Part shown: positions 40,546-56,445 of the stretch, in pieces | Layout: every line of letters begins with the position of its first letter | Numbering within the stretch: position 1 is the first letter of the stretch | The notes under the pieces: model-generated | The model's database searches: none | What the model was told of the DNA's origin: nothing | The model's input: only the letters and a program-made list of their open reading frames with translations | Program-made: the position numbers and the translations under genes | Origin: Shewanella oneidensis MR-1 | GTDB lineage: Bacteria > Pseudomonadota > Gammaproteobacteria > Enterobacterales > Shewanellaceae | Reading direction: 5' to 3' | DNA: 64,000 bases | Assembly: GCF_000146165.2 (NCBI RefSeq) | Contig: NC_004347.2 | Span: 1,426,001 to 1,490,000 of the forward strand

Positions 40546-41289
40546 TCATTTTTTGAAGAAAGCTTCGTTGGTGCCGTATGGGCCTAAGTTTAAATCGCGT
40601 TTGCGGATGGCATCTACGCGGTCAAAGGCTTCTTCGGCTACGCGTAGGTTTTTAACATCCTTACGCCAGTAGTATTTAAATCCATCAAAGTGCGCGTTGT
40701 TTGGATACCAGTAAAACACACCTAAACCTTCTTTATTGAGGATTGGGGTGTTGTGGATATGGGCACCAGGAATATAGAAGTATTGACCTTTGGCCAGTGT
40801 TTCAAATTTATTGTTCGCCAATGTTTTACTGGTGCCGTTGACCACGTAATAACACTCTGGTTGACCGTGGAAATGTGGCTCATGGTCTGATTTTAAACCA
40901 TTGGTGATACCAATTACGACAGGGCTATCTGATAGCTCTTTCCAGATATAACCCACAGGTGAGTTTTTAGGGTCGCAGTTTTTGGCTTCGAGCACGTTAC
41001 CGTGGTCATCCAAGGTTTTACAAAAACGTTGGTCTGCGGCAATGCTGTCATTGGGTTTGATAGTGTTAAAGTCGATTTTGCCAGCTTCCCAATCGGCAAT
41101 GTAGGCCTCGATTTCAGGGTTGCTGCACTGCTCTGGCATCGTGTTTTGCGGCACATAGGGCGTGCTGTCGTACGGTACTGGCGTCATTTGTTGATAGGGC
41201 AGTTGCGCGTGGTTACATTGTGGGCCTTGAGCCATAACAGCTGTTGAAGTTAGTGCCGCTAATCCGAAAAGCATTTTTAATTTCATCAT
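40546..41289 (-). CDS. Exported cupin-domain protein (possible lyase)
   Basis: The 247-residue protein has a signal peptide (MMKLKMLFGLAALTSTAVMAQG). A single cupin barrel fills about residues 110-210, with metal ligands in His139-x-His141-xxx-Glu145-x-Tyr147 and a second His near PGAHIHN (177-179). The HxHxxxExY spacing resembles the DMSP-lyase cupin superfamily, but the protein is much shorter than periplasmic DddY (about 400 residues), so this is only a hypothesis. Four Cys in the N-terminal half may form disulfides. It is the last gene of the flavoprotein-cytochrome-porin set but has its own upstream palindrome at 41414-41439. Confidence 0.8.
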   Translation of the reverse strand: MMKLKMLFGLAALTSTAVMAQGPQCNHAQLPYQQMTPVPYDSTPYVPQNTMPEQCSNPEIEAYIADWEAGKIDFNTIKPNDSIAADQRFCKTLDDHGNVLEAKNCDPKNSPVGYIWKELSDSPVVIGITNGLKSDHEPHFHGQPECYYVVNGTSKTLANNKFETLAKGQYFYIPGAHIHNTPILNKEGLGVFYWYPNNAHFDGFKYYWRKDVKNLRVAEEAFDRVDAIRKRDLNLGPYGTNEAFFKK

Positions 41290-41413
41290 TCCAATCCTAT
41301 TTTAAATCGCTTAATGGCGATATTGTGTTGGTTATTTTGTTACGTGACTAACAATAAAGTGATTGGTTAATGGTAAAGGTGAATTGGATCACGCCATGTT
41401 TTGAGTGGCAAAC

Positions 41414-41439
41414 TTATTCGTGACTTTACTCGCGAATAA
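41414..41439. promoter_or_regulatory. Palindromic operator upstream of the cupin gene
   Basis: TTATTCGTGA-CTTTAC-TCGCGAATAA: 10-base arms, one mismatch, 6-base spacer. The same left arm and spacer length recur upstream of the flavoprotein gene at 45812. It is a candidate site for the nearby TetR protein. Confidence 0.65.
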
Positions 41440-41458
41440 TCTTACCGTCCGAGCCGTT

Positions 41459-42541
41459 TTAGAGCTGCAATTGTATGCTTAACTGCGCGTAGTTGGACTT
41501 TCCCTGCTGCGCATTGGGATGGACTGAGCTGTTGTTATCCTCAATTTGATAGCGGCCAACTTCAACACCTAGGGTGAGTGCTTGGGTTAAATTGGTAAAC
41601 AGATTCACACCAAAGTGGCTGCGATCCGTTTGTTCTCTCTCAGTGCTTGTGTGTCCAAAAAAGAGTGTCGAACGGGTGTAGTCAGTCCAAAAGTGCCGGT
41701 AGGCAAACATGGCGGATGTCGTGGTTTCTAATTCTCCTTGGATGATATCGCGCGCGGCATCGGTGCCGACATAACGACCTAGGTGGCCGTAATGCAATTG
41801 CAGGCGCAGATCATCTTGGCCAAAGGTAAAGAGTTTGGCAGCAAGGGAGAGCCCGCCAGCCCATTGTGACGTGCCTGCAGGATCTAAATAACGCACTAAG
41901 CCCGAGATAGACACATTGCCCCACTCGCCGGATTGGTTGTAGCGGGCAATCATGTCTGGGATATAGTCATGACTGGTATCAATCCAGTTAGGTTTTGCTG
42001 GTGTGGCGTTGGTTATTCCATCCGTTTGAGCTTGAGTGCCGTAGGTGTAGGGATTTTCGAGGGCGAATTGCCATTGTTCGGTGCTGTATCGGATAAGTGC
42101 TTGTCTTACCATGGCTTGTCCAACTAATGGCCCACCTAAATCGGCTGTTTCGGCAAAGGTACTGGTATTGACTAAGGTTGACCAAGTTTGCCCAGCGGTG
42201 ATGCCTTGATAACTGATATAAGCATGCCTAAGTCGTGGACTGTAGGAGTTGGAGATAATCGGGTTTCCTTGGCTTGAGCCGACAAAATCGATTTCGGCAA
42301 AGGCTTTGGCTTCATCGGTGTTGAACGACAGGTTAAAGCGGCTTTCTTGGGCGCCAAATTGGGTGCGTTTGGTGTGTTCGACAACGTTGCCTCCGCCTGT
42401 CCAACTGTCTTGAAAGGCCACATTGCCTTCAACAAAGCGGGTGTTGGCCTTAATAAATCCACCTAACTGCACATCGGCGGCATACAGTGAGGATGAACAG
42501 ATAAAATAAACGGCAAGTGTAGGTAAAGATTGTAGTTTCAT
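41459..42541 (-). CDS. DcaP-like outer-membrane porin
   Basis: The 360-residue protein has a signal peptide (MKLQSLPTLAVYFICSSSLYAAD), alternating beta-strand patterns and a C-terminal hydrophobic/aromatic strand (NYAQLSIQLQL). The GGFIKANTRF start and the ITAGQTWSTLVNTSTFAETADLGGP segment are typical of DcaP-like trimeric porins, which take up dicarboxylates and other organic acids in Acinetobacter. In this locus it probably admits an organic electron acceptor. It follows a terminator after the first porin. Confidence 0.87.
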   Translation of the reverse strand: MKLQSLPTLAVYFICSSSLYAADVQLGGFIKANTRFVEGNVAFQDSWTGGGNVVEHTKRTQFGAQESRFNLSFNTDEAKAFAEIDFVGSSQGNPIISNSYSPRLRHAYISYQGITAGQTWSTLVNTSTFAETADLGGPLVGQAMVRQALIRYSTEQWQFALENPYTYGTQAQTDGITNATPAKPNWIDTSHDYIPDMIARYNQSGEWGNVSISGLVRYLDPAGTSQWAGGLSLAAKLFTFGQDDLRLQLHYGHLGRYVGTDAARDIIQGELETTTSAMFAYRHFWTDYTRSTLFFGHTSTEREQTDRSHFGVNLFTNLTQALTLGVEVGRYQIEDNNSSVHPNAQQGKSNYAQLSIQLQL

Positions 42542-42564
42542 CGTTCACTCTATGGGGAAAACGT

Positions 42565-42591
42565 AAAAAAAAAGCCCTAACGAATAGGGCC
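42565..42591 (-). terminator. Intrinsic terminator after the first porin gene
   Basis: On the minus strand GGCCCTA-TTCGT-TAGGGC is followed by nine Ts. It lies between the two porin genes and would end or attenuate transcription before the DcaP-like gene. Confidence 0.88.
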
Positions 42592-42649
42592 AAAAAAGTT
42601 GAGCAGTTTAAAACGGCAGGGAGGAGGGACGTCCTAAACTGCGCAAATA

Positions 42650-43786
42650 TTAGAAGTAGTAACCAAAGTTGATGTTGATACGTTTATCCCAATCGTTACC
42701 GACTTCAGGTAGGCCAACGTGGTCGTTATTGGCTGTTGAGAAGGTCATGTTTTTACCCATCACAAAGTCAATCATGGTGTAAGTTGGGCCAGCAGAAATC
42801 GCCATACCGGTGACGTTTTGCATGCTGTTGTCATAGCTATCGTCATCAACATCAGGCGTCATTAAACCAAAGTCGTTATAAAACTTAATGTTGCCCCAAT
42901 CTGTGTTAACGGTTTTGGCAATGTTGATGTTATAGGCTTGGCCCTTAGAGGCGATTTCATATTGCCAGCTCACCACCGATACGCCAATTTTGTTGTCGTC
43001 GATAGCATCTGCAGCATTGTATTCATACTGCATGGCTTGCATTTGTAGGTTCCAGCCGTTGTAGCTGCTGTCTAAATGCAGGGCTACAGCATAGCGGTCG
43101 CCATTATTGCCGGTTTTGCTGTTGTAGATTTGACCAACCTGTACTGAGCCGCCAACTGTCGTTGAGCCACCTTCGTATTCCGCGGTGTAGGTTTGGCGTA
43201 CGTTGAGTTGGTTGGTTTCTTCGTTGTTGTATTCAGTGCCATTGATGGTGCCGGTATACAAGTCAGTTGAATAACGCTTGTTTTCGGTTGGGCCGTATTC
43301 GGCGTTTTTATAAAACGCTAAATCGGTATGCCAGCCGTTTTTCTCATAGGTCGCTTTTAAGCCGATGTCATGGTCATCTTCAAAGCCTAAATAGTAAGGT
43401 AGGCCAAACCACCAACTGTTAGAGATAAACTCGCGGTTACCAAAGGGCACTTTGTTAATACCAAATTGCAGTTGCCAATCTGGATTGATGTCGTAATAGC
43501 CATAACCATACTTGATATAGTTTGTGCCTGAGGTAAAACGGTATTCTGCCGCGAGACCGAAATCGCCTTTTTTACCATCGAATTTAATTGCGGCCATATC
43601 GAAGTTAAAGTCACCGCCTTTATCTTTCGATTTTTCATCATAATCGCGATAGCCATAGTTAACGCGCACTGCACCGCCAACATTGATGCCATCTTCTTGC
43701 TCAGCAGCAAAAGCGCTAGCTTGGGAGAGTGCGATAGCCGTTGCCACCATGGACAACATAAACCGAGTTGATTTTTTCATCATCAT
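42650..43786 (-). CDS. Outer-membrane porin
   Basis: The 378-residue protein from the first of three tandem Met codons has a signal peptide ending near AFAAEQ. AAGGTA is best spaced for the third Met at 43780. Repeated amphipathic beta strands and the C-terminal GNDWDKRININFGYYF, ending in aromatic Phe, mark a beta-barrel. The family seems close to the porins annotated beside Shewanella flavocytochromes, but I cannot name it. The tetraheme cytochrome gene ends 36 bases upstream, so the two are probably co-transcribed with the reductase. Confidence 0.87.
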   Translation of the reverse strand: MMMKKSTRFMLSMVATAIALSQASAFAAEQEDGINVGGAVRVNYGYRDYDEKSKDKGGDFNFDMAAIKFDGKKGDFGLAAEYRFTSGTNYIKYGYGYYDINPDWQLQFGINKVPFGNREFISNSWWFGLPYYLGFEDDHDIGLKATYEKNGWHTDLAFYKNAEYGPTENKRYSTDLYTGTINGTEYNNEETNQLNVRQTYTAEYEGGSTTVGGSVQVGQIYNSKTGNNGDRYAVALHLDSSYNGWNLQMQAMQYEYNAADAIDDNKIGVSVVSWQYEIASKGQAYNINIAKTVNTDWGNIKFYNDFGLMTPDVDDDSYDNSMQNVTGMAISAGPTYTMIDFVMGKNMTFSTANNDHVGLPEVGNDWDKRININFGYYF

Positions 43787-43822
43787 TACCTTTTTTAAGT
43801 TTTTGTATTATAAAAAATTTAT

Positions 43823-44194
43823 TTACATTTCTTTGAACCAAGTACGGTGGCACTCTGCACACACTGGAGCCTTTTTCTCATGCTCGCCGTGGCAGGCTAA
43901 GCAGCTGGCGCCTTGGTTGTAGTGCAGCGATTTGTGTGGATGGGCCTCAGGGATCGCAAGCTTGGACTCATCAACCGGAATACTGTTTATTTCACCGTGA
44001 CACTCAACGCAGGCAGCATCGGTGGCATTTTGTTTACCCGAACCTTGGTGACATCCGTTACAGCCATCTTGGTAGATAAATTCGTGGTTGGTTCTGCCTT
44101 GGGTGCTGCCTTTCATCTTGACAAGATCTCCGGCATTGGCTGCGCCAGTGAACAGAGTTGCAACAACGAGTGTGAGTAGTAATGTTTTCATCAT
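43823..44194 (-). CDS. Periplasmic tetraheme cytochrome c
   Basis: The 123-residue protein has a signal peptide (cleavage near ANAGD). Four heme motifs can be counted: CNGCH, CVECH, CLACH and CAECH, with further His residues as distal ligands. The layout matches the cytochrome domain of flavocytochrome c fumarate reductases and the separate tetraheme subunits of methacrylate-type reductases. It should carry electrons from the quinol/CymA pool to the flavoprotein encoded 3 bases upstream. It is a two-protein version of what is one polypeptide in FccA. Confidence 0.94.
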   Translation of the reverse strand: MMKTLLLTLVVATLFTGAANAGDLVKMKGSTQGRTNHEFIYQDGCNGCHQGSGKQNATDAACVECHGEINSIPVDESKLAIPEAHPHKSLHYNQGASCLACHGEHEKKAPVCAECHRTWFKEM

Positions 44195-44197
44195 GAT

Positions 44198-45718
44198 TTA
44201 GGCCTGCATGTCAGATTTGATGGTTTCAGCAACGATAATTCCCATCGTTAAGCACTCTAGGCAAGCTGTTGAACTTAAACGGGTTCCACCATGTGTGCCG
44301 CCTGTCGCTTCGCCAACGGCATAGAGATTTTTCATCGGAGCTAGGGTCTGGCTATGCAGCACTCTTGCGCCTAAATCGGTTTTTAAGCCGCCCATGCAGT
44401 AGTGCACTTTTGGCCAAATCCGCGACACAATAAACGGTGCTTTAAGTTCGACAGCTGTATCCATCATGCGGCCAAACAAGGGGTCAATGCGCTGTGGCAC
44501 TTGCTTGTTATACTCGGCTACGGTTTGTTTGAGTTGTGCAAGTGGAATATTGAATTGCTTAGCTAATTGCTCAAGGCTATCGACTTTCCAAGCGATTTGG
44601 TCACGTACCGCGCGGGTGACTTCTTCTGCACCCACATGATCATCATGGTTAAAGAACACCACAGGATAGGCGGGTGAGCCGTCAGGGTTGCGGTTTTTCA
44701 TAATGGCATCGGAGCAGGTTTTTCTATCGGCGCGTTCATTCATAAAACGCTTACCGTCTAACACATTGACTGAAATACCTTTATGGAAACCAATCGAGAG
44801 CAGGGCATTTGACCAGCCAAAGCCGCCTTCATCGGGCGAGCCCCAGTGACCAGTTTGAATAAAGCTCATATGAACTGGGAACGCGCCGTGGGCCATGGCC
44901 GTTAACGTCACTTCACCGGTTGCACCTAGGGCATTGGTACAATCTAAGGTTTTATCTAATGCAGGATCAACCAGTTCACGTAGTACTAAGTTACGTGAGA
45001 AACCACCGTGGGCAAGGATAACGGCCTTATTGGCTTTGATGTAGATCGTTTTACCGGTTTTGAGATCTGGGAAGCGATAATTTTGACGTACTTTCAAGCC
45101 AACAATCTGTTGGCCATCCATGATGAAATCTTCAACATAATGCTGTAGACGGTATTCAACGCCTTCTTTTTTACCCACTTCATACAGCTTAGTGGTGATA
45201 TCGCCACCGACACCGTGTTGAGTTCGGATAGCCCGGGCTTTATTGTGGCCACCCACTTGTTGGTTAAAGCCTTCGCGGAATTTGACTCCGGCGTCGATAC
45301 ACAATTGGTAGGCATCGAGGGCGCGATTAGCCATTTGGCGTAACATGTCGGTATTTTGCATACCGCGGCCAGAGATAATTTGATCTTTCACTAGCTCTTC
45401 GGGCGAGTCGTCTTGAATACCTTGAGCCAATTGGATTGGGTTTTTAGGAATAGCTAACCAGCCACCATTGATCGCAGAGTTGCCGCCGATCACCTGCATT
45501 TTTTCTAATACTAGTATCGAGCCTAGACCTTGACGCTTAGCATTAAGTGCTGATGACAGCCCCGCAAAACCCGAACCCACGACGATAATATCGCGAGTTT
45601 CATCCCATTTAATGTTTGAGGCGCATTCAGTGGCCGATGCTGCACTTGGCAGTGCCGCTGCGATACCGCCTACCGCAGCGCCTGCACCTAGCTTTAAAAA
45701 ACTTCTTCTATCATGCAT
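44198..45718 (-). CDS. Tat-exported flavoprotein reductase (fumarate reductase-like)
   Basis: The 506-residue protein has a Tat signal (MHDRRSFLKLGAGAAVGGIAAALPSAASA). FAD-binding GxGxxG occurs in DIIVVGSGFAGLSSALNAK. Active-site positions by comparison with FccA are Arg in NERADRKTCSDAI, His in KVHYCMGG and Arg in GGTRLSSTA. The heme domain is absent and supplied by the adjacent tetraheme gene. This split organisation recalls methacrylate reductase of Geobacter-type bacteria. It should reduce an activated C=C bond in the periplasm with the cytochrome as donor. The substrate is unknown; Met/Cys near the catalytic His (YCMGG) differs from FccA (HTMGG). Confidence 0.9.
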   Translation of the reverse strand: MHDRRSFLKLGAGAAVGGIAAALPSAASATECASNIKWDETRDIIVVGSGFAGLSSALNAKRQGLGSILVLEKMQVIGGNSAINGGWLAIPKNPIQLAQGIQDDSPEELVKDQIISGRGMQNTDMLRQMANRALDAYQLCIDAGVKFREGFNQQVGGHNKARAIRTQHGVGGDITTKLYEVGKKEGVEYRLQHYVEDFIMDGQQIVGLKVRQNYRFPDLKTGKTIYIKANKAVILAHGGFSRNLVLRELVDPALDKTLDCTNALGATGEVTLTAMAHGAFPVHMSFIQTGHWGSPDEGGFGWSNALLSIGFHKGISVNVLDGKRFMNERADRKTCSDAIMKNRNPDGSPAYPVVFFNHDDHVGAEEVTRAVRDQIAWKVDSLEQLAKQFNIPLAQLKQTVAEYNKQVPQRIDPLFGRMMDTAVELKAPFIVSRIWPKVHYCMGGLKTDLGARVLHSQTLAPMKNLYAVGEATGGTHGGTRLSSTACLECLTMGIIVAETIKSDMQA

Positions 45719-45811
45719 TTTTGTTAACCCTCTATGTCAGTTACAAGCAAGATAGAGGTTATGAACCGCGTCTAAGGAGAAGTGAGTCACGACTTTTTTT
45801 CAGTGAGAAAT

Positions 45812-45837
45812 TTATTCGTGAGACGTCTCTTGAATAT
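45812..45837. promoter_or_regulatory. Palindromic operator upstream of the flavoprotein gene
   Basis: TTATTCGTGA-GACGTC-TCTTGAATAT. The left arm and the 6-base spacer match the palindrome upstream of the cupin gene (41414); the right arm is more degenerate. It lies between the flavoprotein gene and the divergent TetR gene. Confidence 0.6.
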
Positions 45838-46051
45838 TTTTTCTTTGATAATTGGGGGCGATACATGACTAAATGAACACAATTTAATTTATGACAACCT
45901 CCTGTTGATAAAATGTGTATTTGAAGTAACTCACAAAGGTTGAAATTTAAGACTTTTAGGTGTGACCTTTATCCCGATTAACTGTTTATTGGCTATGCCT
46001 CGTATTTGTGAGCAACCCATAATGTACTTTTCGGTATGCTGGAATGAATAA

Positions 46052-46834
46052 ATGAAATGTCCTTCGGACTCCCTGTCCATTTTACGTTGTAATCAAATAT
46101 TGGATGCGGCTGAAAAGCTCATTGAGTCACAAGGTGTTGTATCTTTTAAGTTTTCTCAGCTTGCGCATGAGGTGGGATGCTCTACGGGTACTTTATATAA
46201 ATTTTTTGAACGTAAAGAAGATGTGTTGGTTTGTTTATTTTTAAGAAGCGCAACCTCAAATCACTTACCGATATTTATCCATAAAAATCCAGAGTTAACT
46301 GCGCAAGAGAAGGTGCTGTTACCCATTTTATTTACCTTTGAAACCATTAAGCGCAGTAGTAGCTTTTTTACGCTGCGTTCGGTGTCGGTCAATACCATGG
46401 TGTGGAAACTGGCCAGTGACGAAAAAGTGGAGCGGTTTAAAAAACGCATTAATGCTTTTTGGAGTTGGTTTACAGACTCACTGCATTTAGCTGTTGAAAA
46501 CGGCGAATTAGTGGCAACACCATTACAAATTAAAGAATTGGTCCAAGGGATAACGTTTTATTTAACAGGGTCTTTGACACAATTTGAAAGTCAATTGATT
46601 GCCCCAGAGTTTTTGTCTGATCGCCGTGAAACCTGTTATCGACATTTAGCAAACCTGATGGAGCGATACGAGTGGAAAAAGCCTTTAACTCTTGCGCTGT
46701 TTGATTCGTTAGAGGCGAGAACTATTAAGTTTTTTGACCAACATTATCGTGACCATATGACCTGCGCGGCTTGTAGTGCGCTGTCAAATACCGACACTAA
46801 GACATCATCTCCCTGTACTCGTCAGTGTGGTTAG
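46052..46834 (+). CDS. TetR family regulator with a cysteine-rich C-terminal tail
   Basis: The 260-residue protein has an N-terminal TetR HTH (about residues 10-58: CNQILDAAEKLIESQGVVSFKF, then EVGCSTGTLYKFFERKEDVL). The C-terminal ligand domain is followed by an unusual tail with Cys at 238, 241, 255 and 259 (CAAC...CTRQC). It is divergent from the flavoprotein gene and is the natural candidate to bind the TTATTCGTGA palindromes. The Cys tail could bind a metal, heme or Fe-S cluster and make it redox-sensitive; that is inference. The start has no strong ribosome site. Confidence 0.9.
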   Translation: MKCPSDSLSILRCNQILDAAEKLIESQGVVSFKFSQLAHEVGCSTGTLYKFFERKEDVLVCLFLRSATSNHLPIFIHKNPELTAQEKVLLPILFTFETIKRSSSFFTLRSVSVNTMVWKLASDEKVERFKKRINAFWSWFTDSLHLAVENGELVATPLQIKELVQGITFYLTGSLTQFESQLIAPEFLSDRRETCYRHLANLMERYEWKKPLTLALFDSLEARTIKFFDQHYRDHMTCAACSALSNTDTKTSSPCTRQCG

Positions 46835-47205: not shown

Positions 47206-47805
47206 TTACTGTTTATGATTGGCGAGCAACCAAGCGAGTTCGGCGGCGTTACTCACGTGCATTTTTTGCATGACTTTTTGCCTGTGTAACTCAATGGTTC
47301 GCTGCGCGATATCTAGCTCCGCCGCAATGACTTTGTTCATTTTACCCGCCAGTATGCCTTCCATGACTTGTGTTTCACGCTGGCTGAGGGTGGCAAGCCG
47401 ATTGGCTATGTCTAATTGCAAATTTTGTTGGTGCCATTTTTGCTCAGTATGTTGTTGGGCTTGGGTCAAAAGCTGAAATAGCTTCTCGCCATCAACGGGT
47501 TTTTCAAGAAAATTAAGTGCGCCCTGTTGGATACAGTCTACGGCCATTGCAATGGTGCCGTGGCCAGTGAGCATGATGACGCTAATTGCACTTTGTGCTT
47601 GATTTAAATGGTTTAACAGTGCAACGCCATCCATGCCTGGCATTTTGATGTCCAGCAGTAGTACGGCGGGTTGCTTGATATCAACACTCTTTAAAAATGC
47701 ATCCGCAGCGTTAAAGCCTTTGCAGTTAAGCCCCATCCCTTCAAGCATCCAGCTGAGGGAATCCAGTACATCTTGATCATCATCCACGAGGTAAAGCGGT
47801 GTCAT
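47206..47805 (-). CDS. LuxR/FixJ-type response regulator
   Basis: The 199-residue protein has a receiver domain (residues 1-120). Acidic DD follows YLVDD at the start, the phospho-Asp is in VLLLDIKMPGMDG (about residue 54), Thr is in MLTGHG and Lys in FLEKPVDG. A LuxR-type HTH follows (about 140-195: LSQRETQVMEGILAG...IAQRTIELHRQKVMQKM). It belongs to the FixJ/TtrR group. Its start overlaps the 3' end of the sensor kinase gene by 26 bases, so the two form a two-component operon. It probably controls the ApbE/FMN-lipoprotein/flavocytochrome genes. Confidence 0.94.
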   Translation of the reverse strand: MTPLYLVDDDQDVLDSLSWMLEGMGLNCKGFNAADAFLKSVDIKQPAVLLLDIKMPGMDGVALLNHLNQAQSAISVIMLTGHGTIAMAVDCIQQGALNFLEKPVDGEKLFQLLTQAQQHTEQKWHQQNLQLDIANRLATLSQRETQVMEGILAGKMNKVIAAELDIAQRTIELHRQKVMQKMHVSNAAELAWLLANHKQ

Positions 47806-49585
47806 TTTGCTCTCCTAAGCCTGGCTGCGAATTGACTGGCAGGGTGACTTTAATCGTTAATCCTGGATTGGCGTGGTGGGCTTCAATTTTGCCTTTGTGT
47901 TCTTCAATAATACGTTTGCAGATCACCATGCCTAAGCCAAGTCCCTGAGGTTTAGAGGTTTCAAAGGGAAAGAATAATCGCTTTAACGCGCTATCGCTAA
48001 GGCCGCAGCCCGCATCGGTGATGTGAATATAGACGTTTTCACCTGTAATCCCCGTGTCGATAAACAGTGATTTTTGGGGGATGCTTTCCATGGCATCGAG
48101 TGCATTGCGTAATAAATTCACCAGCACTTGCTGCATCAAACTGGCGTCGGCAAATACCGGTAAGGCTTGTAAGTTGACCTTAGGGCTGAGTTTGAGCCGC
48201 TGAAATTCAGGTTGCATCAAGGTCAAGGTTTCTTCTATCACTGTGCGTAAATCGCAGGATTGGTAGTCACTGGTTTGTTGGCAAAAGGTGCGCAGCCGAT
48301 GGATGGTGGTTTGGGCTCTATCGACTTGGCTGATGACCTTATTAAGCGCGGTAGCAAGCTCGGCTTGGGTATTATCTAGCCGATATAAACAGCCTTGGGT
48401 GAGATAGCGAATACCGGCCAAGGGTTGTTTAAGCTCGTGGGCAATGCCGGAGGCCATTTCGCCCGTCAGTAGCACCCGCTGGGCGCGATAAAACTGTTGT
48501 TGTTGCTCAAGTAGGATTTTTTGGGTGTGCTGATGATGGGTTATTTCATCGGATAAAGCTTGGGTGCGTTTGACTACTAAGCGCTTAACCCTTAAGTGAT
48601 GAATATAGCCTAGCAGTAAGACAAAGATCAGGCTTGTGCCCCAAGGTAAGGCATTGTGCAGTAATCGCTGCCAGTTGGTGACAAATGGCCATTGCTCTAA
48701 TTGTTTTAACAACTCAAATACCGGGCTATCGTCCACAGGAGCTGACCAATATTGATATCTTCCTTGCTGAGCCGCTGGAGTGTCTGGGGTAATTTGCAAC
48801 AGGCTTGCGACCACTTGCGTCGCGAGTTTATGATCCGTATGGCCTAATTTTGTTAAGGCGTAGCCGGGGTATAATTGAGTCGATACTTCGCAGGCAAAAT
48901 CTGGATGCGGTTGTTTAAGCACGACTTTTAATTTATTGGCTGGAACCAGCCCTTTATCTAATGCGTTTTCTAAAACGCAGCTAGGTAATACCGCAATATC
49001 AGCTTCACCCGATAGCACCATTTGCAACAGTTTTTGCTGTGGAAAACCAATAAAGCGCAGCTTGGGGATATCGCGGTAGGCATTGATGCCTTTGGTTGCC
49101 ATCGTCGCTGCAAAAATTTGAAATCCACCAAAGGCTTGTGGGTCGCTTGATACTAACTTTTCATCTTTAAGTTGGTCCCATTGGCTTAGGTTGCTGTCAA
49201 TTCGTGCGACGATGGCTGAACCTATGCTCTGTTCTGGTGAACGAACTCGGTTATGGACAAGGGTGAGTAAGTGACTGGTGCCATAGTTTCTTTTAAAGGC
49301 GACCGTGGTAAGGGCATTGCCAATTAAAAAGTCGATACTTTGCTTAACTAATGCTTCATCTAATTGAGATGGCGTTAATGGCATGAGTTGTACTGGACGA
49401 TGTAGTTGTTGACTCAGCCAATCAGCGGTAGGCTGCCAATTGGCCATGACTTCATCAGGCTCATTAAATGCCATGATACCAATCCGCACCGGATCATTTG
49501 CATGGCTATCGGCGGCAATGACTGGCAAGTTGAAGTCGATAAAAAGGGCCAGGATAAACATTAATCGAGTGAAGAATTGAGACAT
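47780..49585 (-). CDS. TtrS-like sensor histidine kinase with periplasmic binding domain
   Basis: The 601-residue protein has a signal or anchor (residues 1-24). A PhnD-like periplasmic binding domain spans about 30-290 (DPVRIGIMAFNEPDEVMANWQP ... FGGFQIFAATMA). A membrane helix at about 314-333 is followed by a short coiled coil. The HisKA site is ASGIAHELKQPLAGIRYL (His about 380), and the HATPase has NLLRNALDAM, DAGCGLS and GLGLGMVICKR. TtrS, the tetrathionate sensor, has this same plan. The ligand here is unknown; neighbours suggest an organic acceptor reduced by the flavocytochrome. Confidence 0.93.
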   Translation of the reverse strand: MSQFFTRLMFILALFIDFNLPVIAADSHANDPVRIGIMAFNEPDEVMANWQPTADWLSQQLHRPVQLMPLTPSQLDEALVKQSIDFLIGNALTTVAFKRNYGTSHLLTLVHNRVRSPEQSIGSAIVARIDSNLSQWDQLKDEKLVSSDPQAFGGFQIFAATMATKGINAYRDIPKLRFIGFPQQKLLQMVLSGEADIAVLPSCVLENALDKGLVPANKLKVVLKQPHPDFACEVSTQLYPGYALTKLGHTDHKLATQVVASLLQITPDTPAAQQGRYQYWSAPVDDSPVFELLKQLEQWPFVTNWQRLLHNALPWGTSLIFVLLLGYIHHLRVKRLVVKRTQALSDEITHHQHTQKILLEQQQQFYRAQRVLLTGEMASGIAHELKQPLAGIRYLTQGCLYRLDNTQAELATALNKVISQVDRAQTTIHRLRTFCQQTSDYQSCDLRTVIEETLTLMQPEFQRLKLSPKVNLQALPVFADASLMQQVLVNLLRNALDAMESIPQKSLFIDTGITGENVYIHITDAGCGLSDSALKRLFFPFETSKPQGLGLGMVICKRIIEEHKGKIEAHHANPGLTIKVTLPVNSQPGLGEQNDTALPRG

Positions 49586-49757
49586 GGTTCTATCCTGACA
49601 GGGACGATTTCATCAAGTGACTAACGCTGCCAGAAGCAAGTGTTGCAATTGATTAGGTTAACAACATGCTGCGTAATGCAGAGATTATGGCCAAGAATAT
49701 TAGCCATAGTATGCCCATTAGTGATTGCTGATATATTGAGCCGCTTCACACATTAGC

Positions 49758-50885
49758 CTAAGGATTGAGCTTAGCGCGATATTGTTCAAATTGTGGCGTG
49801 GCGATTTTATGTCCTTGTTCATCCAGAAACCATACCGCTTCAATATCGCCGATACGCTTTATTAAATCTTGCGCTTCGGGCATCGGCAATAAAAATAAAC
49901 TGGTTGAAATCACATCAGCGAGAATGGGTTTATTCTTCATAATGACGGATACTGAGATACCTTGTTTTTTCGGGTAAAGTGTCGTTGGGTCAATAATATG
50001 ATGATACTCTTGACCATTCACTGCGTAATAATTGAGATAATTACCACTTGATACAATGGTAATATCTTCACCTTGAATGATTTCATGGTAAATATCACCG
50101 TTGTTAATCTCGTTAAAATCTTTATGTTCTAATTGATATTTACGGATTAATGGATTTTCGATAGCCGTAATAAATTGGCGACCATCAGGGTGTGTACCAA
50201 AGTGGCGGATATTTCCACCGGCATTAATCATGAATGCATTAATATTATCGGCTTTTAATTGGTCATACACTTTTTCAACCATCCAACCTTTGGCAATACC
50301 GCCTAAATCCAACTTCATTCCGGCCTTCATTTGAATGGTATTATTGTTCGCATCGAGTGTTATCTGTTTTATATCAATGTGTTTTGCCGCATTGGCTAAT
50401 TCGGTATCGCTGGGCAGTTCGCATGCACCACCCTGTTGGCAGCGTTTACGATAGCTTCGCCAAACCTCTAAAACGGGGGCTAGGGCAATGTTAAATCGGC
50501 CTTGGGTAATGCCATGCCATTCAATGCTGGTTGTTAATATTTCGGTCAATTTCGCATCGATATGATGTAACTTTTCAGGATTGTTATTGATGGTCTGAAT
50601 ATTAGTGTAACCAGGGTAAGTGCTAAAGTTTGATGCTAAATAGTGATATTCCTGTACCACATTAAGGGCATGGCATAATGCTAAATAGGCTTTGTCTTTA
50701 TCCGCCTCATAAATATCAATGGTAATGGATGTGCCAAAATATTTTAGCGTATTTATACTGCCTTTGCCTTGCTCATAATTAAACGTTGCATTGGTATTGC
50801 AGTCAAATGGCGAGAAAGTCGCATTTGCCGTTGTGGACATAATAAAAACATAAATTAATACAGCAAAAGACAATAAGTACTTCAT
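49758..50885 (-). CDS. apbE: ApbE family FMN transferase
   Basis: The 375-residue protein has a signal peptide (MKYLLSFAVLIYVFIMSTTANA) and the ApbE catalytic domain. Typical segments are MKLDLGGIAKGWMVEKVYDQL (about 195-215), FMINAGGNIRHFG and the metal/FAD site with DVISTSLFLLP. ApbE attaches FMN covalently to Thr/Ser of target proteins in the periplasm. The divergent next gene encodes a lipoprotein with two such target motifs, so substrate and enzyme are neighbours. It may be co-transcribed with the two-component genes downstream; the gap is 172 bases. Confidence 0.94.
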   Translation of the reverse strand: MKYLLSFAVLIYVFIMSTTANATFSPFDCNTNATFNYEQGKGSINTLKYFGTSITIDIYEADKDKAYLALCHALNVVQEYHYLASNFSTYPGYTNIQTINNNPEKLHHIDAKLTEILTTSIEWHGITQGRFNIALAPVLEVWRSYRKRCQQGGACELPSDTELANAAKHIDIKQITLDANNNTIQMKAGMKLDLGGIAKGWMVEKVYDQLKADNINAFMINAGGNIRHFGTHPDGRQFITAIENPLIRKYQLEHKDFNEINNGDIYHEIIQGEDITIVSSGNYLNYYAVNGQEYHHIIDPTTLYPKKQGISVSVIMKNKPILADVISTSLFLLPMPEAQDLIKRIGDIEAVWFLDEQGHKIATPQFEQYRAKLNP

Positions 50886-50996
50886 ACAACCTCCATCTTG
50901 ATGACGATTAAATTAGTAACATGAATTCCCGTAGATGACAGTAATCAATCGGCAAAGTGTTAGCTAACTCATAGATTTTGAATTGAGGTTGGCTTA

Positions 50997-51012
50997 TTGC
51001 GGTTTTCCGCAA
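50997..51012. promoter_or_regulatory. Small perfect palindrome in the ApbE/FMN-lipoprotein spacer
   Basis: TTGCGG-TTTT-CCGCAA. It is a candidate binding site for the nearby response regulator, placed 60 bases before the lipoprotein start. It lies in the only divergent spacer of this module. Confidence 0.55.
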
Positions 51013-51071
51013 TTGTCGAATTATTTACGAGGTCTATGCTGGCGGCAAGTTCATTAGTTGAAGAGCGTTAT

Positions 51072-52424
51072 ATGATGAAAACTGAATTACATTTCAAAAA
51101 AAGTTTGTTGGTTAGTGCAGTTGCATTGGCAACGTTTGCCTTAGCGGGTTGTGCCAATACTGCGCCACAGGGTAAATATGTTGATGGTGTCCATCATGTC
51201 AGTGGTAAGGGCAAGAAGAGCGATATCACCCTTGAGGTTAAGGTTGAGCAGGGCAATATCACCCAGGTAAAAACCCTGTCACATAAAGAAACCGAGTCAC
51301 TATACCTTAATGCTGAGCGTTTATTGCCCGAAATTGTGAGCCACAATGGCCATGAGGGTATTGATGCTATCTCAGGCGCGACTTATTCATCTAATGGTAT
51401 TTTAAAAGCCATCAATGATTTACCCCGTATAGATGGCACCAAGCCTGAGTATCAAAGTGTTGGGGCTCGTAGTCAAACAGGGGATGATGATTTTAAACTG
51501 AAATGGTCTATCCAACCGCGTTTAGGCTTAGTGAAAGGTGATTACTACTTTGAAGAGGCCCGTTTTCGCCAAGGGCATATGGGTAGCATGTTAGTGGTAG
51601 TGGATTCAAACAACCTTCAGGATGTGATCCTGGCCGAGTTTAATGAAAGTGGGCGTCCGAATTATTACACTCGCCTCTACCAAAATGTGCCTAAGCGTAT
51701 GTCTGAATACAATTTCTCCATGGGCAAAAAGAAAGGCACTGCGTGGGTACAATCCGCATTAACCATGGAAAAGTTAATGATGGAAAAAGACCAACTCACC
51801 TTTGAGTTAAATCCTAACTATGATCCAAAATTAGGTAACCAGCTAACTGAGCCTAATCGTCTTAAATATCAGGGTATTGATATTGTTGCTGGCGCCTCAA
51901 ATAGTATCCAACAATCCATGATCCCTTTGACTGCTAAGATCCATAATCGGATTCAAGCAGGGGCGAGTGATGCGCTTTTTTATCAGCAAGCTGAAAAATT
52001 ACTTGATGAAAAAGGCCGTTGGACAGGGGTTACTGCCATGCTGCGGTTAGTGGTTGATAAAAATAGCCACAAAATTACCCATGCCCATTACGATGAGATT
52101 TTTGCTGACGAGAAGAAAGATATCCAAGATGCATCCTTGAAAGCATTTTATCGCCAATCCAAATATGACTCGATTAATTATGTTGAGCCCGCGCGTATTG
52201 GATTTAACGTGATGATCGATGCCTTATCTTTGCATCTTAAAGAAGGTGGTTCGCTGTTTAATATTAACGATTTACCCGCAGCTGGAGATACCGGTAGTTA
52301 CGCACAAACTGGGTTTACTAAGCGTTCAGATGCTTGGGATAACTATCTGCGACTCGCTGGTATTTTGTACAAACAAATGCGCGCCGATGGTGTGATTAAT
52401 GAACATGCCTTACCTGCTCAGTAA
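51072..52424 (+). CDS. FMN-binding lipoprotein with two ApbE target motifs
   Basis: Started at ATG 51072 (MMKTELHFKKSLLVS), with GAAGAG upstream, 450 residues; the open frame extends upstream from a TTG but that part is unlikely. The lipobox is FALAGC, with lipidated Cys27. The first FMN-binding domain (about 33-120) ends in DAISGAT, Thr104 being the expected FMN site. A second related domain (about 150-290) has DIVAGAS with Ser276. A third related segment near the C-terminus lacks the motif. The plan recalls the Listeria PplA electron-transfer lipoprotein. It probably shuttles electrons in the periplasm or at the outer membrane. Confidence 0.88.
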   Translation: MMKTELHFKKSLLVSAVALATFALAGCANTAPQGKYVDGVHHVSGKGKKSDITLEVKVEQGNITQVKTLSHKETESLYLNAERLLPEIVSHNGHEGIDAISGATYSSNGILKAINDLPRIDGTKPEYQSVGARSQTGDDDFKLKWSIQPRLGLVKGDYYFEEARFRQGHMGSMLVVVDSNNLQDVILAEFNESGRPNYYTRLYQNVPKRMSEYNFSMGKKKGTAWVQSALTMEKLMMEKDQLTFELNPNYDPKLGNQLTEPNRLKYQGIDIVAGASNSIQQSMIPLTAKIHNRIQAGASDALFYQQAEKLLDEKGRWTGVTAMLRLVVDKNSHKITHAHYDEIFADEKKDIQDASLKAFYRQSKYDSINYVEPARIGFNVMIDALSLHLKEGGSLFNINDLPAAGDTGSYAQTGFTKRSDAWDNYLRLAGILYKQMRADGVINEHALPAQ

Positions 52425-52441
52425 TATGGATATCTAACATT

Positions 52442-53479
52442 ATGAATAAATCATTTGCTATTTCGCTGCTCACCTTGGCGCTGTGTGCTACACAGGCCGT
52501 GGCGGATGAACATAAATTTTATGGTCGTATCGATTATTCGGTAACTCATTCCGATAGTGGCAGTGCGACGCATAAAAATAAAAGCGGTACCATATTAGAG
52601 AATAACTTTTCGCGGTTTGGTATTAAAGGCTCGAGCCAATTAACTGATAGCACCTCATTATTTTACCAGATTGAAGTTGGCGTAAATGGTGAGAGTCAAG
52701 ATAGTGGCGATAAACCATTCTCAGCACGCCCAACATTTATTGGTGTTAAGCACAGCACTTATGGCGCCTTAGCCGTTGGACGGATTGATCCGGTATTTAA
52801 AATGGCTAAGGGGATGTCTGATGCAATGGACAATTACTCCTTAAAACATGACCGTTTATTTGCCGGAGACAAGCGCTGGGGTGATTCCTTTGAATACAAA
52901 TCCGCCCATTGGAATAAATTGCAATTAGGTGTGAGCTATTTATTGGAGGACAATCATTATAGTAATAATGATAACCGCCGTGATAATGGCAATTACCAAT
53001 TAGCGGTTACCTATGGTGATAAGTTCTTTAAAACCAGTGATGTATATGCCGCGGTTGCCTACAGTGATGGTGTTGAAGACATTGAAGCTTACCGTGGTGT
53101 CATCCAATATAAGTGGGATAAGTGGCAGTTTGCGACTATGTTGCAACATTCACAATTGGTGAATACGGATAAAACCGATTGGCAACAACGCGAAGGTGAT
53201 GGTGTTATCGTTAGTGCCAAATATCAATTAGGTCAATTATCGTTAAATGCCCAATATGGATTTGATAATTCCGGTACCGGATTAATCGCTAACCGTATTT
53301 ATGCCAGTAAAAATACCTTGATTGATGAGGTTCCAGAAATCTCCCAATGGGCGATTGGTGCTGAATATAAATTGAGTAAATCAACACGCCTACATACTGA
53401 AATCGGTCAGTTTGATGTGAAGCAGTATGATGATTTTGACGATACTATTGTCAGCCTTGGTATGCGTTACGACTTCTAA
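52442..53479 (+). CDS. Outer-membrane porin (IfcO-like position)
   Basis: The 345-residue protein has a signal peptide (MNKSFAISLLTLALCATQAVA). A Gram-negative porin barrel begins DEHKFYGRIDYSVTHSD and ends in aromatic MRYDF. The RFGIKGSSQLTDSTSLFYQIE and FIGVKHSTYGALAVGRID segments are family signatures of general porins. The gene follows the FMN lipoprotein by 17 bases and converges on the flavocytochrome gene, so it probably admits the acceptor used there. Loop residues that would set selectivity cannot be read. Confidence 0.9.
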   Translation: MNKSFAISLLTLALCATQAVADEHKFYGRIDYSVTHSDSGSATHKNKSGTILENNFSRFGIKGSSQLTDSTSLFYQIEVGVNGESQDSGDKPFSARPTFIGVKHSTYGALAVGRIDPVFKMAKGMSDAMDNYSLKHDRLFAGDKRWGDSFEYKSAHWNKLQLGVSYLLEDNHYSNNDNRRDNGNYQLAVTYGDKFFKTSDVYAAVAYSDGVEDIEAYRGVIQYKWDKWQFATMLQHSQLVNTDKTDWQQREGDGVIVSAKYQLGQLSLNAQYGFDNSGTGLIANRIYASKNTLIDEVPEISQWAIGAEYKLSKSTRLHTEIGQFDVKQYDDFDDTIVSLGMRYDF

Positions 53480-53492
53480 AACAGCTTTCTAG

Positions 53493-53536
53493 TTGTCACC
53501 TTGTTAAGTCATTTACTGTACTTAGCAAGGTGACAA
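53493..53536. terminator. Long hairpin between porin and flavocytochrome genes
   Basis: Arms TTGTCACCTTGTTAAGT and ACTTAGCAAGGTGACAA are 17 pairs with one mismatch and a 10-base loop. There is no clear T-run; it is nevertheless the likely shared terminator of two convergent genes. Confidence 0.7.
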
Positions 53537-53604
53537 TGCTTAAGATTAATGCAAACTAATCTAACCTTCGAGATCGATAAGGTGGCGTGACTTGATAGAA
53601 TTAG

Positions 53605-55374
53605 TTATTTAATAGAATTAGCTACTTGTTCTCCAGCAATTCGCCCAAATACGATAGTGTCAGCTATTGCATTGCCCGCCAATCTATTTGCACCATGCAC
53701 CCCTCCAGTGACTTCTCCGGCTGCAAAAAGACCTTTTATTGGTAACCCATTCTGGTCAATGACTTCTGTTTTAGTGTTAATTTTTAAGCCGCCCATAGTA
53801 TGGTGAACCGCGGGTTTAATTTTGACCGCATAAATAGGATATTGAAGATCATCGGCCATATTCTTACGAGCAAAATCTGCATCTTTGCCTTTCACTTTAA
53901 AATCGTTATAACGTTTTATCGCTTGGTCAAATTTTTGAGCATTCATCTTCGTCGCTTTAGCCATTTCATCAGCTGAATTGCCTTTGAAGATAATACCTAA
54001 ATCTAACATTCCTCGCAGTTGACCAAGCCTATCTAAGACGGTTTCATCAAACACTAACCACGCATCTTTACCTTTTTGCGCCCAGATACATTCAGAGACT
54101 TTATCCCTTGGTCCCATCTCATCGCAGAAGCGTTCTCCATCATTATTCAGCATAATAGCGCCAGCTCCCCGTGCAGTGCCTGAGATAACCATTTTACCTG
54201 CCGCCGCCGTTGGGAAGGCTTGAATTTCTTTGACGTCAACAATATCTGCACCGACTTTGGGAGCGAAAGTGAGCGCATCGCCGACGTTGCCTGGATTATT
54301 AGTGGCATCTACACCTTTTAAGTCTGGGCGATATTTAGCCACTAATTCGTTATTTCGTGCAAAGCCGCCAGAAGCGATAATGACCGCTTTAGCACCGAGT
54401 ATATGTAATTTTGAGTGCTTGCCTTGAACAAGGACACCAGTAATAACTCCTTGTTTATTTTGCACTAGCTGGATGACTTTACTGTTGGTGCGGGTTTCAA
54501 CACCGAGTTTTTGGGCGGTTTCTTTTAGGGTGTTAACAATTTCTGGACCTGATTTCGCACCACCCGTTGGTCTATGTAAACGCTCAGCATTATGTCCCCC
54601 AGCACTTGATGCCGACGTTAAATCTGCTCCCATTGCTTGCAGCCAATCAACACCAGCACTGCCGTTTTCTGTCAAGATTTTAACGAGATCAGGGTTGTTT
54701 ATGTTATGCCCACCTTTCATTGTATCTTCATACCACAGCGCCTTACTGTCAGGGTAATGCTTAAGGGCTTGTGTGACGGTTTCTGCGGCTGACATACCGC
54801 CAGCAGCTAACATGCTATTGCCACCAATGTAAGGTTGTTTTTCAAGAATGACGACATCTGCAACGCCATGTTGCCTCGCTGAAATGGCTGCCGCATGTCC
54901 TGCTGCTCCCGCACCAATGACAATCACTTGATGTTGTTCAAGTGGAGCCTTCGCAAGGGCTGTTTCAATCATTTCTTGGGTGACTTCTGGAAACTGATAG
55001 TTATCCAGTACGGGTTTATCGTTAGAAAAGGGGATTTTAAACTCATTTTTAAAAGAATCATGGCAAGTTTGGCAAACAAATACCGGCTGTTTATGACCGG
55101 AATGACAACTGGTACAAGACACATCAATAAGATGACTATGATGTGGTGATAGTTTAGATTTTGATTTGGCAGCTAATTCGCCCATAGTTCCATGGCAACT
55201 TTCACAGGACTTATTTTCATGGTTTTCTGCATCATCAACTTTTATAGGTTTTGTGTGACACGTTTGGCAGTTGTTACCCTTATCAATATGGAATTCTGAT
55301 AAAGATTGTCCATAACTAAATGTTGATATAAAAAAAGCCGACATGGCTAACGGTAATAATTTGGTATTCAACAT
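53605..55374 (-). CDS. Flavocytochrome c (FccA/IfcA-like) with a changed active-site residue
   Basis: The 589-residue periplasmic protein has a signal peptide (about 1-22), four heme motifs (CQTCH 36, CESCH 57, CTSCH 87, CQTCH 101) and a flavin domain with GAGAAGHAAA (154-163). Compared with fumarate reductase FccA, the acid-catalyst Arg (PRDKVS, Arg423), the HHTMGG pair (524-525) and GANRL Arg564 are kept. The substrate-binding His of IQAHP is Phe387 (IQAFP). That argues against fumarate as substrate. Gene order (porin, flavocytochrome, LysR) recalls ifcO-ifcA-ifcR of Shewanella. It receives electrons from CymA-type donors. Confidence 0.93.
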   Translation of the reverse strand: MLNTKLLPLAMSAFFISTFSYGQSLSEFHIDKGNNCQTCHTKPIKVDDAENHENKSCESCHGTMGELAAKSKSKLSPHHSHLIDVSCTSCHSGHKQPVFVCQTCHDSFKNEFKIPFSNDKPVLDNYQFPEVTQEMIETALAKAPLEQHQVIVIGAGAAGHAAAISARQHGVADVVILEKQPYIGGNSMLAAGGMSAAETVTQALKHYPDSKALWYEDTMKGGHNINNPDLVKILTENGSAGVDWLQAMGADLTSASSAGGHNAERLHRPTGGAKSGPEIVNTLKETAQKLGVETRTNSKVIQLVQNKQGVITGVLVQGKHSKLHILGAKAVIIASGGFARNNELVAKYRPDLKGVDATNNPGNVGDALTFAPKVGADIVDVKEIQAFPTAAAGKMVISGTARGAGAIMLNNDGERFCDEMGPRDKVSECIWAQKGKDAWLVFDETVLDRLGQLRGMLDLGIIFKGNSADEMAKATKMNAQKFDQAIKRYNDFKVKGKDADFARKNMADDLQYPIYAVKIKPAVHHTMGGLKINTKTEVIDQNGLPIKGLFAAGEVTGGVHGANRLAGNAIADTIVFGRIAGEQVANSIK

Positions 55375-55482
55375 TACTCTTACCTCTCTAGTGTTTTAAT
55401 TCATATTCATCATTGCTGCACGCTTAAAAATTGACAAAGCAAAAAAATTGATTCGTCAGAAGAGAAAAATTCACTTAACAGG

Positions 55483-56445
55483 ATGGAAAGCATGAGAGTT
55501 ATACCGCCGATAAAATCTATTATTTATTTTGAGGCCGCAGCTAGATTGCAAAGTTTTAAACTTGCCGCAATGGAACTGAATGTTACGCCAGGCGCAATTA
55601 GCCACCAGATAAGCACATTAGAAGATTTTATTGGGAAAAAGGTTTTTGAAAGAGGTAGTCGACGTGTAACGCTAACTTATTGTGGTTTAAGGTATTACTC
55701 AAGGATATCCATTATTTTGCAAAACATGGAGGAGGCTACTGTTGATCTCGGTATCGAAGGCAGCAAACCAAAAATTAAAATAGCAATTCCACCCTCATTA
55801 TTAAAAAATTGGTTACTGCCCAGATTGGTTGATGACAAACTAAAAGATCTCAATCGTAGTGTGGAATTTATTGATACATTAGATTATCTTGAATTTTCTA
55901 AGTGTGATTTAGATCTAGCAATACGTTATGGTTATGACTCGTGGGATAATCTTTACTCTGTTTTTCTATTTCATGAGGAAATGATTCCAGTATGCCATCC
56001 TAATTATTTTATTTCAGAGTTTACGGATTTTACTCAAGAGATTATCGACAACCACACGCTTATATTTACGAATAATCGCTTGGTTCAGTGGGATATTGTT
56101 ATGCAATATTTCGGTCTAGAGCGAAAATCGACCCAGAGTAAGCTCATTTTTCAAAACTCGATTCAAGCAATTGAAGCGGCTATTCAAGGCGCTGGCATTG
56201 CCTATGTGAATCGAATTCTTGTGTCAAAGGAGTTGAGTAATGGCAGGTTAATTCAACCTTTTGACATTTATATGCCAAAACATAAATCTCCTGCATATCA
56301 TCTGGTCAGTACCTATGAGCATATGCAGGACGAAGCAACCTTTAAACTTTACCAAACGATATTGGAATTCGCGAAATCAACTCCGCATCAACACATTGTA
56401 AATGCTCAAGCTAAGCAAAATGCATGGCTTGAGCATGCTGTTTAA
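55483..56445 (+). CDS. LysR family transcriptional regulator
   Basis: The 320-residue protein has an N-terminal LysR HTH (about residues 8-66: IKSIIYFEAAARLQSFKLAAMELNVTPGAISHQIS). A substrate-binding domain of the GcvA-like branch follows. The start may be Met1 or Met4; AGGATGG overlaps the first ATG and is well spaced for the second. It is divergent from the flavocytochrome gene with 108 bases between, the classic layout for a LysR activator and its target. By position it matches IfcR. The inducer may be the acceptor of the flavocytochrome. Confidence 0.92.
   Translation: MESMRVIPPIKSIIYFEAAARLQSFKLAAMELNVTPGAISHQISTLEDFIGKKVFERGSRRVTLTYCGLRYYSRISIILQNMEEATVDLGIEGSKPKIKIAIPPSLLKNWLLPRLVDDKLKDLNRSVEFIDTLDYLEFSKCDLDLAIRYGYDSWDNLYSVFLFHEEMIPVCHPNYFISEFTDFTQEIIDNHTLIFTNNRLVQWDIVMQYFGLERKSTQSKLIFQNSIQAIEAAIQGAGIAYVNRILVSKELSNGRLIQPFDIYMPKHKSPAYHLVSTYEHMQDEATFKLYQTILEFAKSTPHQHIVNAQAKQNAWLEHAV

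Follow-up and report, generated by a model that had tools for sequence, protein, structure and literature searches.

A DddK-like cupin beside a split flavoprotein–tetraheme reductase in Shewanella oneidensis: a candidate lyase-fed respiratory cassette

The linkage of the lyase DddY with fccAB has already been published (PMC3338564), and a reductase has been suggested to remove the acrylate made by a lyase, with the authors pointing to DddY loci (PMC4427408). Work on DddK, a lyase of dimethylsulfoniopropionate (DMSP), proposes Tyr64 as the base and assigns carboxylate binding to Tyr122 and binding of the cationic group to Tyr21, Trp26, Phe108, Trp110 and Phe117 (PMC10686828, PMC12582016). Here, we analyze a locus of Shewanella oneidensis MR-1, positions 40,546 to 46,834 of a stretch of 64,000 nucleotides (the window), in which an exported cupin stands next to a flavoprotein, a tetraheme cytochrome and two porins. 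By sequence and predicted fold, the kin of this cupin is DddK, and we consider it rather likely that the locus encodes a cassette for lyase-fed anaerobic respiration, in which the cupin would split off a leaving group from a carboxylate and so supply the flavoprotein with an unsaturated acid to respire. The argument draws on computed genes, synteny, co-occurrence, active-site conservation, a predicted fold and related cassettes that contain DddY or proteins of the aromatic amino-acid lyase family PF00221.

A sequence-only reading of the locus had described a minus-strand set of flavoprotein, tetraheme cytochrome, porin, DcaP-like porin and exported cupin facing a TetR gene. All six genes are indeed open frames in this order. 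We refer to the set as cassette A, and to a paralogous set described below as cassette B.

40546..41289, minus strand: exported cupin of the A type, DddK-like, with the predicted metal site H139, H141, E145 and H179, and with Y147 and Y206 corresponding to DddK Tyr64 and Tyr122
41459..42541, minus strand: DcaP-like outer-membrane porin (PF19577, 21.3 bits against a cut-off of 27)
42650..43786, minus strand: porin-like protein without a Pfam match; relatives 62–79% identical recur in PF00221 and DddY cassettes
43823..44194, minus strand: exported tetraheme cytochrome c (PF14537, 43.5 bits; four CxxCH)
44198..45718, minus strand: flavoprotein reductase of the A clade with a twin-arginine translocation (Tat)-type N-terminus (TIGR01813, 576.2 bits)
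45719..46051, no strand: intergenic region separating the divergently oriented flavoprotein and TetR genes, with a CRP-like site at 45920-45935
46052..46834, plus strand: divergent TetR-type regulator (PF00440, 32.7 bits)

The cupin belongs to a small family. A search of ∼5.8 billion proteins returned 58 relatives and a profile search 69; viral contigs were not among the results. The named relatives belong to Shewanella, Ferrimonas, Paraferrimonas and a small number of other organisms, including S. xiamenensis and S. decolorationis with cupins 98–99% identical. An HxHxxxExY motif, already pointed out in the sequence-only reading, lies at residues 139–147, and in an alignment of 27 sequences W116, K117, H139, H141, E145, Y147, H179, W194 and Y206 are invariant. 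The window cupin scores 22.4 bits against PF07883, under the Pfam cut-off of 27.2. The best PDB match of its profile is DddK (E-value 1.3e-9), followed as the next kind by quercetinase (3.9e-7). Structure prediction and fold search, which had been proposed as a check, gave an AlphaFold model with a predicted local distance difference test score of 88.7, for which DddK occupies Foldseek ranks 1–6; VIA-align also ranks it first, though level with a functionally unassigned cupin. The suspected kinship to the DMSP-lyase superfamily holds by profile, fold and active site, with DddK and not DddY as the relative. The idea of a short DddY was rejected: the cupin has no match in NCBIfam, a library that holds DddY models and in which a true DddY scores 774.6 bits with NF053571. 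An hhalign comparison with five DddY sequences aligned only the signal peptides, a weak test given the shallow profiles.

Next to the fold, the putative active site is strongly conserved. We compared it in 136 distinct family proteins (103 A-like and 33 B-like, many of them near-copies), in which the residues corresponding to DddK Trp26, His56, His58, Glu62, Tyr64, His96, Trp110 and Tyr122 are conserved in 135–136 cases. The counterparts of the metal ligands His56, His58 and His96 (H139, H141 and H179) are present in all 136 proteins and that of Glu62 (E145) in 135; both Y147 and Y206 occur in 136/136. Among the places that hold the cationic group in DddK, W116 and W194 are found in all proteins, and F201 is Phe or Trp in 134. 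The place of Phe108 is mostly taken by Met, Leu or Ile, and Tyr21 falls outside the alignment. A cationic leaving group is thus possible, but because of these two positions we do not put it more firmly. As a control, 20 genomes of the class supplied 30 Cupin_2 loci with 430 open segments. The full DddK-like pattern, present in 134 of the 136 family proteins, was found only once in these segments, namely in the B cupin of the same genome. HxHxxxExY by itself is not diagnostic, since one of 16 scored control loci also has it (the motif script scored 17 of the 30, 13 having no frame match, and the family's own B member was left out). Profile A1 matched in 71 of 152 genomes of the family, a mixture of strong matches and weak ones to other cupins that was not used for counts.

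The pairing of cupin and flavoprotein recurs across the genus. Among 97 Shewanella genomes, 38 have cupin A, in full length in 36 and as a fragment in G070 and G086, and 41 have flavoprotein A; 37 genomes have both, 55 neither, four only the flavoprotein (G004, G008, G021 and G060) and one only the cupin, the fragment in G086 (Fisher p = 4e-21, ancestry not corrected for). In 34 of the 36 genomes with a full-length cupin A, the two genes are clustered, 0.7–3.4 kb apart, and in the remaining two the cupin lies at a contig end. Of 54 loci from named genomes, a set overlapping with the 97, 48 show a flavoprotein and a tetraheme gene beside the cupin, two are cut by contig ends and four lack them; for one of these four, from Ferrimonas senticii, a 63% identical flavoprotein is listed on a contig of equal length, more than 9 kb away. 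In-frame TAG codons were reported in three flavoproteins. The cassette arrangement is not due to chance. The sequence-only reading would have been refuted by a cupin of some well-characterized unrelated family or by genes rarely found together, and we found neither. Because in Shewanella the cupin almost never occurs without the reductase, while the reductase can lack the cupin, a role of the cupin as a feeder enzyme would fit.

A few cupins stand apart from flavoproteins. An A-like cupin of Falsirhodobacter sp. alg1 (54% identity; L121:9001-11521) has no flavoprotein within 9 kb and lies beside a gene that by eye resembles an alginate lyase. In Shewanella hanedai, a third kind of cupin (45% identical to B; L134:7458-10183) is accompanied by TetR and a small exported protein, again without a flavoprotein, and the surrounding genes resemble, by eye, those of ectoine utilization. 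No consistent substrate emerged from the neighbors, named by eye, of the cupins lacking a flavoprotein (L121–L123 and L134).

Cassette B, often in tandem with cassette A, consists of a flavoprotein, a tetraheme cytochrome, a cupin 30–34% identical to that of A, a DUF3299 protein and TetR. In the fetched loci, a B cupin lies downstream of 20 of 26 B flavoproteins from Shewanella, and the DUF3299 protein (L040:13290-13754) adjoins the cupin in nearly every B cassette that has one. In the B cassette of the window's own genome (L039:8960-14456), a transposase gene has come to lie between TetR and the flavoprotein, whose frame lacks the Tat-type start found in relatives, and because of both features this copy may be non-working. 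Mixed cassettes in Ferrimonas (L124 and L125) combine a flavoprotein nearest to B (57–60%) with a cupin nearest to A (47–49%), as if parts had been exchanged between the two.

Flavoprotein–tetraheme units are also found beside other lyases. Two further sets of the same genome carry ammonia-lyase-like PF00221 proteins with signal-type starts:

L144:6500-11427, C1 near 3.44 Mb: PF00221 cassette with a porin 79% identical to that of the window
L145:6896-10562, C1 near 3.17 Mb: PF00221 cassette of flavoprotein, tetraheme cytochrome and PF00221 protein

The PF00221 lyase is present in all ten fetched loci of these two types, on the opposite side in L166 and split across two frames in L154; L163, a distant relative of these loci, has none. 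A genus-wide count of PF00221 (at least 96 of 97 genomes) includes the ordinary histidine ammonia-lyase and was not used. It is possible that these cassettes serve the respiration of acids made from amino acids. A further flavoprotein type adjoins DddY (NF053571, 774.6 bits against a cut-off of 650; PDB DddY, E-value 3.5e-61), with acuI near. Of the 42 DddY genes in the 97 genomes, at least 39 lie within 5 kb of a flavoprotein gene, and the other three are near contig starts; 6 of 11 fetched flavoproteins of this type have DddY and 5 do not.

The window flavoprotein matches TIGR01813 at about twice the cut-off of 285.45 bits. It has the equivalents of Arg402 and Arg545, Tyr at the place of His504 and Gly at that of His365, so that neither of the two histidines expected of a fumarate reductase is found. 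The replacement of VHHTMGG by VHYCMGG had been read as a hint to a substrate other than fumarate, and this much stands. In the 66 non-outgroup flavoproteins of our set, however, Gly for His365 and both arginines are present throughout and Tyr for His504 in 65, which marks the whole clade, DddY-linked members included, as "not fumarate". YCMGG as a sign of a substrate special to the window gene was therefore rejected.

A flavoprotein tree of 69 rows unites the B-linked and DddY-linked proteins in one clade (100/97), which A joins (99/95), with the PF00221-linked groups outside; lyase labels change 18 times on this tree, compared with a mean of 35.0 after shuffling. The consensus SPDEGGFG is common to the A, B and DddY-linked rows, whereas the PF00221-linked rows have SPDEKG. 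Approximately unbiased (AU) tests do not reject a grouping of A with one PF00221-linked group (p = 0.093) or with the other (p = 0.095), support for joining A to the B and DddY-linked proteins falls to 92/71 in a trimmed set, and the branches of the tree are long, all of which weighs against the placement of A. The A-type reductases probably group with the B and DddY-linked ones.

For the lyase chemistry, substrate, product, electron route and regulation, we infer the following course. A substituted carboxylate would enter through the porins and reach the periplasmic metal cupin, which would act like DddK and hold the carboxylate by its metal and Y206. Y147 would take the alpha proton and the beta leaving group would depart, leaving an alpha,beta-unsaturated acid (acrylate or a related compound) as the product. 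The Tat-exported flavoprotein, fed with electrons by the tetraheme cytochrome, would then reduce this acid, and the lyase would thus make the respiratory acceptor on the spot, with TetR presumably sensing substrate or product. A lyase-coupled periplasmic respiration had been suggested from the sequence alone; the DddK-like site and fold, the co-occurrence and the DddY and PF00221 cassettes agree with it, while lyase activity, substrate and product are proposed here. An acrylate-type product is favored for cassette B because its reductases share a clade with the DddY-linked ones. The product of cassette A is likely related to this type, but may differ, because flavoprotein A has its own motif TGHWGSPDEGGFGW, distinct from those of B and the DddY-linked proteins, and a long branch, and because 12 of the 38 cupin-A genomes lack DddY.

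More specifically, the cupins could be new periplasmic lyases of DMSP or dimethylsulfoxonium propionate (DMSOP) and the flavoproteins acrylate reductases, as at the DddY locus. We regard this as unlikely. It agrees with DddK as the nearest structure, with aromatic counterparts (W116, W194 and F201) for three of the five DddK cation-pi residues, with the clade shared by B and DddY-linked reductases, and with the higher frequency of DddY in cupin-A genomes (26/38 versus 16/59 others, ancestry not corrected for). It is at odds with the variable Phe108 place and unmapped Tyr21, with the motif and long branch of flavoprotein A, and with the cupin-A genomes without DddY, among them that of the window; A and B paralogs in one genome would also suggest different substrates.

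Instead of an acrylate-like acid, the A-type pair might handle a bulkier acid or one with an aryl group, the kind of substrate presumed for PF00221-linked reductases. The AU tests allow such a placement and the A motif is unlike those of B and the DddY-linked proteins, but the best trees and the shared SPDEGGFG argue the other way, and this explanation appears unlikely. We think it quite unlikely that the cupin is no lyase and prepares the acceptor as an isomerase, hydratase or hydrolase before the flavoprotein acts: cupins are diverse, and the weaker profile and fold matches include quercetinase, sugar isomerases and KdgF, but every family protein has both DddK tyrosines, the proton-abstracting and the carboxylate-binding one, and the partners in related cassettes belong to lyase families. 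A passenger role of the cupin, with the flavoprotein respiring unsaturated acids taken from the surroundings, is very improbable: it would account for the four of 41 flavoprotein-A genomes that have no cupin A and for the 4 of 54 named loci with no flavoprotein nearby, but not for flavoprotein A in 37 of 38 cupin-A genomes (the exception having only a cupin fragment), a pairing kept in two diverged cassettes, or the conserved active site.

Returning to the lyase-fed cassette, we propose a generalization to which we give somewhat less than even credence. Shewanella may respire in a modular way, with one flavoprotein–tetraheme unit repeatedly paired with different exported lyases (DddK-like cupins of at least two kinds, DddY and PF00221 proteins), each making an acceptor in the periplasm from a non-respirable precursor; the cupins would then be new lyases of the periplasm that act on onium-type or other beta-substituted carboxylates. 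The new elements, next to the known DddY–fccAB linkage, are the family of DddK-like cupins and the recurrent change in the type of lyase that accompanies one redox unit. Our literature search, with subscription papers mostly outside it, found no account of a DddK-like cupin beside a flavoprotein. Acceptors of anaerobic respiration are usually regarded as found, not made. If true, an acceptor-making cassette would join lyase chemistry to respiration and could release additional volatile leaving groups, dimethyl sulfide for example, under oxygen-poor conditions. The adjacent lyase also offers a testable guide to the substrates of unassigned Shewanella flavoproteins.

Some further features of the locus concern its expression and surroundings. 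The tetraheme gene starts three bases past the end of the flavoprotein gene, and the two are presumably the counterparts of SO_1413 (tetraheme) and SO_1414 (flavoprotein) of S. oneidensis. Deletion of SO1414 is reported to cause a moderate drop in growth (PMC3623810). The DcaP-like porin is retained in most A cassettes, its name being weak in view of the PF19577 score, and the TetR gene is retained next to them. The TetR regulators of both cassettes (window 46052-46834; B, L040:16667-17428) end in cysteine-rich CxxC tails, possibly a metal or redox switch. The CRP-like site, with one mismatch, was discarded as evidence, since the window contains 3 matches where 1.61 are expected by chance. In the adjoining region (47206-56445), a two-component pair similar to TtrR/TtrS is encoded together with ApbE, a protein with an FMN-binding domain, a porin-like protein, a heme-fused flavocytochrome and LysR, a combination that resembles a further respiratory set based on flavins.

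Compared with described systems, the window cupin resembles DddK of Pelagibacter ubique in its cupin fold, in its metal ligands and in the placement of both catalytic tyrosines and of two active-site tryptophans, with 32 of 95 aligned residues identical. It differs by its length of 247 amino acids, including an N-terminal extension and a signal-type start (136–150 in the aligned DddK entries), and by a family in which Phe108 is not conserved. In the methacrylate redox system of Geobacter sulfurreducens AM-1, which uses acids of the acrylate type, flavoprotein and tetraheme cytochrome are likewise separate proteins; that system has no named lyase, and its reductase keeps His461, which is Tyr in the window flavoprotein (PMC4427408). 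The fumarate reductase Fcc3 and the urocanate reductase UrdA belong to the same flavocytochrome c superfamily and share both active-site arginines, but the window flavoprotein has Tyr and Gly in place of His504 and His365. UrdA carries an N-terminal part that binds flavin mononucleotide (FMN) instead of a split tetraheme gene, and in FccA the heme part is fused, whereas the window has a separate gene. A similar arrangement is that of DddY with fccA and fccB in Shewanella, again an exported cupin lyase beside a flavoprotein and a tetraheme cytochrome (PMC3338564). DddY is larger, with about 400 amino acids and no detected sequence relation to the window cupin, and has acuI near it, a gene not seen in cassette A. 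The two loci share an architecture in which an exported gene of lyase type lies next to those for flavoprotein and tetraheme cytochrome, and the DddK-like cupin of the window would take the part of the lyase.

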